From assembly GCA_026002875.1 (NCBI GenBank), contig BPGE01000001.1:4216001-4280000 (forward strand): 64,000 nt of DNA, given 5' to 3'. Made by a program: the position numbers and the translations under genes. The notes under the pieces were generated by a model. The model made no database searches. It had not been told where the DNA came from and was given only the letters and a program-made list of their open reading frames with translations. Within the stretch, counting starts at the first letter, position 1. Each line of letters opens with the position of its first letter. The DNA comes from Bryobacteraceae bacterium (GTDB lineage Bacteria; Acidobacteriota; Terriglobia; Bryobacterales; Bryobacteraceae). Positions 50,526 to 51,655 of the stretch are shown one piece after another.

Positions 50526-50844
50526 CACCGCCCCTCCGGCGGCGCGCCTGAAGAGCCGGAGACTCCAGCCTCTCGCGAGACACACATAGCCGGCGTGCTG
50601 CCGCTTCTTCTCTGCACTGTCCCGATGCGATGCGCGCGGCGGAGAATCGGTCCCGTGCAGGATTTCCGGCTGTCCCCGCTCCGGAAATCCGGCCCTGAAC
50701 GGACATGGCCGCTCCCCCGATCGTTCGGCCGCGGCGGCCGATCCGTGCCCGGGCCGGCGGCGCCATCGGCTCAGCCGCTGCCCCCTGTGCCCGCTAATTC
50801 ATTGCTAATCATAGACTTTTACTCAAGCCTAGCGCGCCTGTTTC
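50526..50844. other. Intergenic region between the divergent groES and glucosaminidase promoters
   Basis: About 320 bases of GC-rich sequence with no convincing gene, repeat or terminator. Its right end (from about 50795) becomes AT-rich, as expected upstream of a promoter. Confidence 0.4.
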
Positions 50845-50853
50845 TGGTATAAT
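50845..50853 (+). promoter_or_regulatory. Extended -10 promoter TGGTATAAT
   Basis: A perfect TATAAT (50848-50853) with the TGn extension. Transcription should start near 50860, about 295 bases before the glucosaminidase start codon. Confidence 0.6.
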
Positions 50854-50859
50854 GGCAGA

Positions 50860-51154
50860 TGTTGTTTGGCGCGGGCAGACGCCCGCGCTGGAAGCCTCCC
50901 AAGCGAGGCTGCCTGAGAGCTAAGGTTTGCAGCGACCGAAGAGAAGTGGAAGGAGGACGGGCCCTGCGAACCCGACCGGCAACCTAACCGGCCCTTTTCA
51001 GAGGCCGGAAACTGAGAGCGGCGCCGCCGCCCTGAGTTGAGCCGCCGGCCCCGACGCTGGCGCACGAGCAAAGTCATCCTTCGGACAGCACAGGCGTTTT
51101 GTGTGCAAGTGGTCCGCGCGGCTTTGCCAGACAGGTGTGGAGGATTTCAACTGG
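50860..51154 (+). ncRNA. Long structured 5-prime leader, riboswitch candidate
   Basis: The leader begins with a perfect 8-bp hairpin (GCGCGGGC 50869-50876, GCCCGCGC 50881-50888), then AGCCTC/GAGGCT (50893-50898 with 50905-50910), then a purine-rich, low-structure core up to 50990, and CCGGCC/GGCCGG (50988-50993 with 51003-51008). The core holds GCGAACCCGACCGGCAACC (50967-50985). Its GAACCCGAC resembles the 3-prime conserved part of ydaO-type c-di-AMP riboswitches, and its GGCAACC recalls SAM-I, but the rest of neither consensus is present. The downstream gene is a cell-wall hydrolase, a favourite target of c-di-AMP riboswitches. A structured regulatory leader is likely; the ligand is unknown. 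Confidence 0.45.
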
Positions 51155-51655
51155 ATGATTCGAAAGGTATCTCGCGGTCTCGTTCTGATGGCGGGTCTGA
51201 TTTTCGTCCAGCAGCCTGCCGATCCAGGTCCCAGGCCTGAGCCTGCGGGACCTGACTCACGCGACCCGCGTCTGTTCTGCATCCGCCAGTTCTTCGTCAC
51301 CCGGAATTGTCCGGCGCACGAATACGCCGGGGATTTCATCGCGGCCGCTGACGAAAACAGTCTGGACTGGCGTCTGCTGCCCAGCATCTCGTTTGTCGAA
51401 TCCACCGGCGGCAAGGCAGTCCGCAACAACAATATGTTCGGCTGGGACAACTCCCAGCAGTGGTTCGCCTCCAGCCGCGAGGGCATTTACCACGTGGCTG
51501 GCCGCCTGGGCAACAGTCCGCTGTACCGCAACAAGAGCCTGAATCAGGTTCTGCGCACCTACAACCCGAATCCGGATTACGCCCGCGTGGTTCTCAGTGT
51601 GATGGATCAGCTCGGTCCCGCCCATCTGGGCGCCGTGTCCGCCACGCCGCAATAA
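51155..51655 (+). CDS. Exported glucosaminidase/lysozyme-like cell-wall hydrolase
   Basis: A 166-residue protein with a signal peptide (SRGLVLMAGLIFVQQPA) and a lysozyme-fold domain of the GH73/Bax-like group. The probable catalytic Glu is in LPSISFVESTGGKAV, followed by NNNMFGWDNSQQWFASSREG, VAGRLGNSPLYRNKSLNQVL and the closing YNPNPDYARVVLSVMDQL. It would cut the glycan strands of peptidoglycan during growth. A Cys pair (LFCIRQFFVTRNC) precedes the domain. ATG 51155 is chosen for its signal peptide and the GGAGGA ten bases upstream. The exceptionally long leader suggests control at the RNA level. Confidence 0.78.
   Translation: MIRKVSRGLVLMAGLIFVQQPADPGPRPEPAGPDSRDPRLFCIRQFFVTRNCPAHEYAGDFIAAADENSLDWRLLPSISFVESTGGKAVRNNNMFGWDNSQQWFASSREGIYHVAGRLGNSPLYRNKSLNQVLRTYNPNPDYARVVLSVMDQLGPAHLGAVSATPQ

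Follow-up and report, generated by a model that had tools for sequence, protein, structure and literature searches.

In Escherichia coli, several mRNAs (ptrB, rcnR, and others) carry an AUG at their 5' terminus, upstream of a main gene that possesses its own Shine-Dalgarno site (PMC4965119). For ptrB, the 5' AUG is reported to be needed for downstream expression independently of the translation of the upstream open reading frame (uORF). Expression fell to less than 8% when this AUG was lost, and to 40% in a mutant with an early stop (PMC4965119). A two-codon mini-ORF in axe-txe raises txe expression, possibly via protection of the mRNA (PMC8708949), and an interplay between B12 riboswitches and uORFs has been described in Mycobacterium tuberculosis (PMC11260477). 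Leaderless genes average 13.3% in three Acidobacteria genomes (PMC3160421), which makes the use of a 5' AUG plausible in these bacteria.

We analyzed a window (the whole stretch of 64,000 nucleotides of Bryobacteraceae DNA) containing a glucosaminidase-like gene preceded by a long leader. As in the E. coli 5'-uAUG mRNAs, the gene is served by a Shine-Dalgarno site of its own, and an AUG is predicted here to lie at the 5' terminus of the mRNA. In contrast to the E. coli case, where the early stop was reported as an introduced mutation (PMC4965119), early stops are natural at this locus and occur in 23 genera. The ptrB leader is 26 bases long (PMC4965119), whereas 50-282 bases (median 109, 45 cases) separate the start of the gene studied here from the mini-ORF stop. 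The axe-txe mini-ORF likewise has very few codons and acts in cis on the gene behind it, cis action being proposed for ours; the abstract of that study gives no 5'-terminal placement (PMC8708949), whereas the mini-ORF described here lies directly behind the -10 box. The M. tuberculosis leaders also combine a structured leader with a uORF, the modulation being proposed in our case, but they belong to a riboswitch class with a known ligand (PMC11260477), neither of which applies here. Among the matches listed from the open literature on 5'-terminal AUGs, on mini-ORFs, and on comparable leaders in Acidobacteria, none describes the present case.

The glucosaminidase-like gene and its leader

The first-pass annotation had pointed to an extended -10 promoter element in the window (TGGTATAAT, positions 50845-50853, + strand, as for all features below), and this element reads TGnTATAAT in 5/5 species of the genus. 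The predicted transcription start at ~50859-50861 yields a leader of 294-296 bases up to the ATG at 51155, in agreement with the ~295 bases proposed earlier. Of note, an ACTTTTA-like AT-rich stretch (50815-50821), possibly a UP element, is located 26 bases 5' of TATAAT and is present at an equal distance in L009, L010, and L012 (three species counted by eye). Behind a Shine-Dalgarno site (GGAGGA, 51139-51144), the gene (51155-51655) encodes a glucosaminidase-like protein of 166 aa that matches PF01832 at an E-value of 0.0066, under the curated cut-off. With an E limit of 1, the same domain is matched by 14/14 of the aligned orthologues, the best value being 3.3e-5. A search of a class sample at E 1e-6 matched 50/250 genomes, all of family f1, and none outside this family. 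The yacL-ispD-ispF order read downstream of the gene was borne out by PIN/TRAM, IspD, and YgbB/IspF domains; yacL and groES are neighbors (1.5 kb flanks) at 5/30 loci, all in the window's genus.

A DNA search found the leader in 5/41 genomes, which are the 5/5 genomes examined from the genus. The block TGnTATAATGGCAGATGYYGTTTG is kept in all five in the alignment, whose other anchors are the helix GGTTYGC/GCGAACC, the tail nGAYnCGGCAACC, AGCGGC-GCCGCCCTGA, and the hairpin CCGCCGGC/GCCGGCG. The leader can be drawn with six or more hairpins, where at least three had been claimed. Hairpin H1 (GCGCGGGC/GCCCGCGC, 50869-50888), seen in the folds of segment S1, is present in L009-L011, whereas L012 and L013 do not have this form of it. 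Hairpin H2 (AGCCTC/GAGGCT, 50893-50910) is drawn from folds and consensus pairs, and a hairpin with different arms is found near this position in 5/5 species (arms matched by eye). Helix H3 (50924-50972), based on the alignment and consensus pairs, joins GGTTTGC (50924-50930) with GCGAACC (50966-50972); its seven pairs are kept in 5/5 species, with a change from C-G to U-G at two positions, in one sequence each. The core (GCGAACCCGACCGGCAACC, 50966-50984) is common to the five species with few changes, as its conserved look had suggested, but it is not purine-rich as claimed (10/19). Further downstream are hairpins H4 (CCGGCC/GGCCGG, 50988-51008, in segment S3), the place of which is occupied by a hairpin with different arms in 5/5 species, H5 (GCGGC/GCCGC, 51018-51030), with arms invariant in the five species, H6 (CGCCGGC/GCTGGCG, 51043-51062), drawn from the alignment, and H7 (51088-51106). 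The latter lies 5' of the ribosome-binding site and is partly in the RNAalifold consensus; a hairpin can be drawn there in 5/5 species, with sequences that differ (by eye).

Taken over its full length, the window's leader has a fold that is no better than those of dinucleotide shuffles (z -0.84, 18/100 shuffles as good), and whole-leader z values range from -0.8 to -1.6 in the five species. Between the conserved anchors, segment S1 gives z values of -3.6, -3.1, -3.9, +1.4, and -1.5, and segment S3 gives -3.0, -4.2, -5.0, -1.5, and -1.8; S2 and S4 show no consistent folding excess across the five species. Within the genus, two segments thus form hairpins again from differing sequences, and the case for leader structure is one of species comparison, not of whole-leader folding. 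Covariation among leaders, which the first-pass annotation had raised, was examined with RNAalifold: the five full leaders gave 70 pairs, 18 of them with both sides changed in some sequence, but the covariation term was not in favor of the structure (+0.52 kcal/mol), and five leaders are a small set. The consensus also pairs the 5' UGYYG with the invariant CGGCA, so that the CGGCA of the core (50977-50981) may pair with the 5'-terminal UGYYG (50860-50864); the mean pair probability of this helix is at most 0.25 in single-sequence ensembles. Beyond the genus, the structure is modest, as judged from the 63 promoter-bearing leaders of the first orthologue set described below (mean z -1.05, s.e. 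0.17; 12/63 below -2).

A predicted 5'-terminal ATG and an early stop in orthologous leaders

In the window, a putative 5'-terminal uORF of 42 codons (50859-50987) begins with an ATG at the predicted transcription start and ends with a TAA directly 3' of the core. Its position behind the -10 box fits an AUG at the mRNA start, as far as the predicted transcription start is correct. A family-wide 5'-terminal mini-ORF was absent from the first-pass annotation. We examined 130 of the 135 listed gene copies; the rows left out were a duplicate (G078:C60), two in G066, and two in G153. Promoters were defined as an extended -10-like site at -350 to -80 for the first 70 copies, and at -450 to -60, with ties assigned to the later site, for the next 60.

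The recognizable promoter extends far beyond the genus, often with an ATG at the predicted start. In the first set, an extended -10-like site was found in 63 of the 70 leaders, followed by an ATG 4-10 bases further in 53/63. An in-frame stop occurs within five codons in 33/53 of these, versus 8 and 11 in the other frames, and the median number of codons to the stop is 4 in frame versus 29 and 28. The second set, made of 60 more distant copies and collected after the mini-ORF idea arose, contains 32 sites, 14 of them with an ATG; all of these (14/14) reach a stop within four codons, while stops within five codons in the other frames are found in 6/14 and 1/14. Taking both sets together, the ATG is found 4-10 bases past the -10 box in 67/95 promoter-bearing leaders, from 30 genera, and the stop falls within five codons, the limit used here for a minigene-like frame, in 47/67, versus 14 and 12 in the other frames. 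The window's frame, with its 42 codons, is longer than this limit. The 47 short frames span 23 genera and 37 distinct peptides; they end with TAA (35), TGA (9), or TAG (3) and have lengths of 1, 2, 3, 4, and 5 codons in 2, 9, 7, 25, and 4 cases, respectively. A Shine-Dalgarno-like site lies 5' of the downstream gene in 61/67 relatives with the 5' ATG. Earlier examples of 5'-terminal AUGs and minigenes are individual cases. The present leaders form a natural series of orthologues in which the AUG and the early stop are retained as peptide and spacer diverge, and this provides evolutionary evidence for the importance of position and short length. In related bacteria, the mini-ORF seems to be retained for the sake of the ribosome and not of the peptide it encodes.

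The ATG is absent from 28/95 promoter-bearing leaders. Three ATG-less leaders (L197, L207, and L301) have a TTG or GTG at the same place, with a stop directly after. No promoter was recognized by the rule used in 35/130 regions, including the 11 second gene copies of genus g5, which form an inner control, as none has such a promoter. Frames longer than five codons are found in 20/67 leaders, four of which belong to genus g39 (L183, L205, L210, and L212). At these four loci, the ATG behind the same promoter is in phase with the glucosaminidase-like gene, which itself looks leaderless in this genus, a state that may be either acquired or original.

The five species of the window's genus have 5' ATG frames of 42 (the window), 117, 49, 4, and 4 codons. 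The two shortest encode the peptides MPFA and MLFA, and the early stop is missing in 3/5 species, the window's included. As two congeners have four-codon frames and three have frames of 42, 117, and 49 codons, the window probably represents a derived state, with the promoter and AUG kept, the early stop lost, and a structured leader present. The possibility that the leader is a coding sequence was rejected, since these lengths leave no shared frame.

This arrangement is rare elsewhere in the genomes searched. Across 21 genomes, the pattern TGNTATAATN{5,8}ATG occurs 37 times, including 18 occurrences at orthologues of the glucosaminidase-like gene: once each in G000, G001, G002, and G004, always at this gene, three times in G003, and at 30 places in 16 further genomes, 13 of them at this gene. 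Frames of at most five codons follow at 12/18 sites at the glucosaminidase-like gene versus 0/19 elsewhere, where the shortest has nine codons. A background of 73 extended -10-like sites includes 23 with an ATG, none with a short frame (0/23), although this number of ATG sites is inflated, as some loci were chosen by pattern, and overlaps with the 19 other sites. The difference between the glucosaminidase gene and the background gives a Fisher p of 6e-10, which is not a true probability, as the species are related.

Possible action of the mini-ORF

Our main reading, to which we give a probability of roughly 0.6, is that the leader is a translation-control region in which a leaderless 5'-terminal mini-ORF loads a ribosome and thereby tunes the gene. 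The mRNA would most likely begin with the AUG (a leaderless start), and a 70S ribosome would initiate at the extreme 5' end and read a mini-ORF of typically 2-5 codons. Termination would occur while the ribosome is still at the 5' end, and the peptide would be irrelevant. The parked or cycling ribosome would protect the 5' end and/or act as a loading site, and would in this way set the expression of the wall hydrolase from the gene's own Shine-Dalgarno site. By analogy with ptrB and txe, the mini-ORF most likely loads a 5'-end ribosome and so protects the message or prepares downstream initiation. Simple reinitiation would be less likely because the gene is far from the mini-ORF stop. We infer the transcription start, that the mini-ORF is translated, and the direction and mechanism by which it would affect the gene. 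A test of whether the 5' end and the ribosome site co-evolve as pairing partners was negative across the family (p 0.85-0.98), and shuffled sequences leave the first six bases just as open as the real leaders do (47 leaders, p 0.60).

More tentatively, the peptide-independent mini-ORF kept in the family could be part of a ribosome-sensing control of the wall hydrolase, in which, in the window's genus, pairing between the core and the AUG would compete with leaderless initiation; we regard this fuller version as possible, with the odds somewhat against it. If true, it would tie leaderless initiation to the control of peptidoglycan turnover. Natural variants are at hand for the mini-ORF, with frames of 1 to 5 codons and of 42 codons, UUG/GUG starts, and loss.

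Alternative explanations and known RNA classes

The alternative that survives best, although we consider it rather unlikely, is a new riboswitch specific to the genus, with the core and H3 as an aptamer that base-pairing between CGGCA and the 5' AUG region would close, and a ligand that would gate the 5' AUG or the ribosome site. Rfam searches of the window, the leader, and the congeners gave no family at the cut-off and nothing relevant below it, consistent with the initial remark that neither the full ydaO nor the full SAM-I consensus is present. With E values allowed up to 10, the c-di-AMP family (RF00379) matched neither the window's leader nor the loci of the four congeners, and it is absent from the whole genome, the B. 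subtilis and C. glutamicum controls being positive. SAM families were not among the matches up to E 10 for the window's leader and the five loci of the genus. The c-di-AMP and SAM versions of the riboswitch, resemblances to both of which had been noted in the first-pass annotation, are therefore unsupported. The leader was also rejected as a 6S RNA (RF00013), as the 6S match sits elsewhere in 5/5 genomes (over the cut-off in three and slightly under in two). These searches and the alignment support a long, conserved, structured region that matches no Rfam model at the cut-off, and to this extent the first-pass annotation is supported.

To its credit, a new riboswitch would account for the conservation of the core and of GATGYYGTTTG in 5/5 species, for the recurrence of hairpins with different arms, and for a consensus closing helix of eight pairs, of which seven are kept in 5/5 species and one in 4/5; the M. 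tuberculosis leaders cited above provide a precedent for a riboswitch acting together with a uORF. The low pair probability of this helix in single folds and the unfavorable covariation term speak against it, as does the predicted uORF, which crosses the core in 3/5 species. Its distribution does as well. A covariance model (R1) built from the leaders of the five species, and used with strict filters in both searches, scores 165-197 bits in its source species. In a search of 150 genomes of the order, six outside the genus gave weak hits of 19-24 bits; in a search of 297 genomes of the phylum at E 1e-4, the window's genome was the only one with a match. Four of the six weak matches outside the genus were checked and rejected, as each lies within an open-frame stretch and is probably coding. 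In L164 and L165, the R1 match is limited to short 3' hairpin parts. The core pattern occurs in at least 119 stretches genome-wide, and the best of the 80 scanned with R1 reached 17.1 bits (E 0.0055). No convincing leader match was thus found outside the genus, and the riboswitch is unproven; with one strong match per genome in a single genus, it is unlike a widespread riboswitch class.

It is improbable that the leaders are a historical residue, that is, decayed and functionless 5' ends of a gene that was once leaderless from the 5' ATG. The genus g39 ATG is in phase with the gene in 4/4 loci that have it, and a start of MRFGY is common to L213 and L025 and close to the MRLGY of L210, as this explanation would have it. 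However, the ATG and early stop persist over 23 genera despite diverged spacers and codons, and under neutral decay no frame bias and no preference for TAA would be expected.

Less probable still is that the 5' ATG reflects a sequence preference at the transcription start or RNA end, without translation. Transcription initiation prefers an A at that distance from the -10 box, and the ATG does lie 4-10 bases past it, but such a preference explains neither the excess of stops within five codons (47/67 versus 14 and 12) nor the lack of short frames at the other such sites (0/19).

Finally, a variant ydaO c-di-AMP riboswitch is very unlikely. In the short resemblance to the ydaO consensus (CGAACCCGAC..AACC) noted in the first-pass annotation, the strengthening part, GGAGGAC, is missing in 2/5 species and part of the resembling stretch pairs locally as the 3' strand of H3; no covariance match was obtained. 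In its favor, RF00379 can precede wall-enzyme genes, as the present leader does, and the presence of a diadenylate cyclase gene in 5/5 genomes (in the window's genome, ~325 kb separate this gene from the leader) means that c-di-AMP could be made. A wall peptidase of C. glutamicum is reported to be controlled by a c-di-AMP riboswitch (PMC9960051).

A separate group of leaders (L242 to L245 and L345 to L352; four genomes, three genera) has a like promoter and a 5' ATG. It has no Rfam match at the cut-off, and a DNA search found it in 7/100 genomes of the order, none of them in the window's genus. These leaders carry a frame of 36-38 codons and a conserved GCCCGC..AGCGGGTTGTCGAA, and the gene behind them is presumably phoH, from the look of its protein letters.
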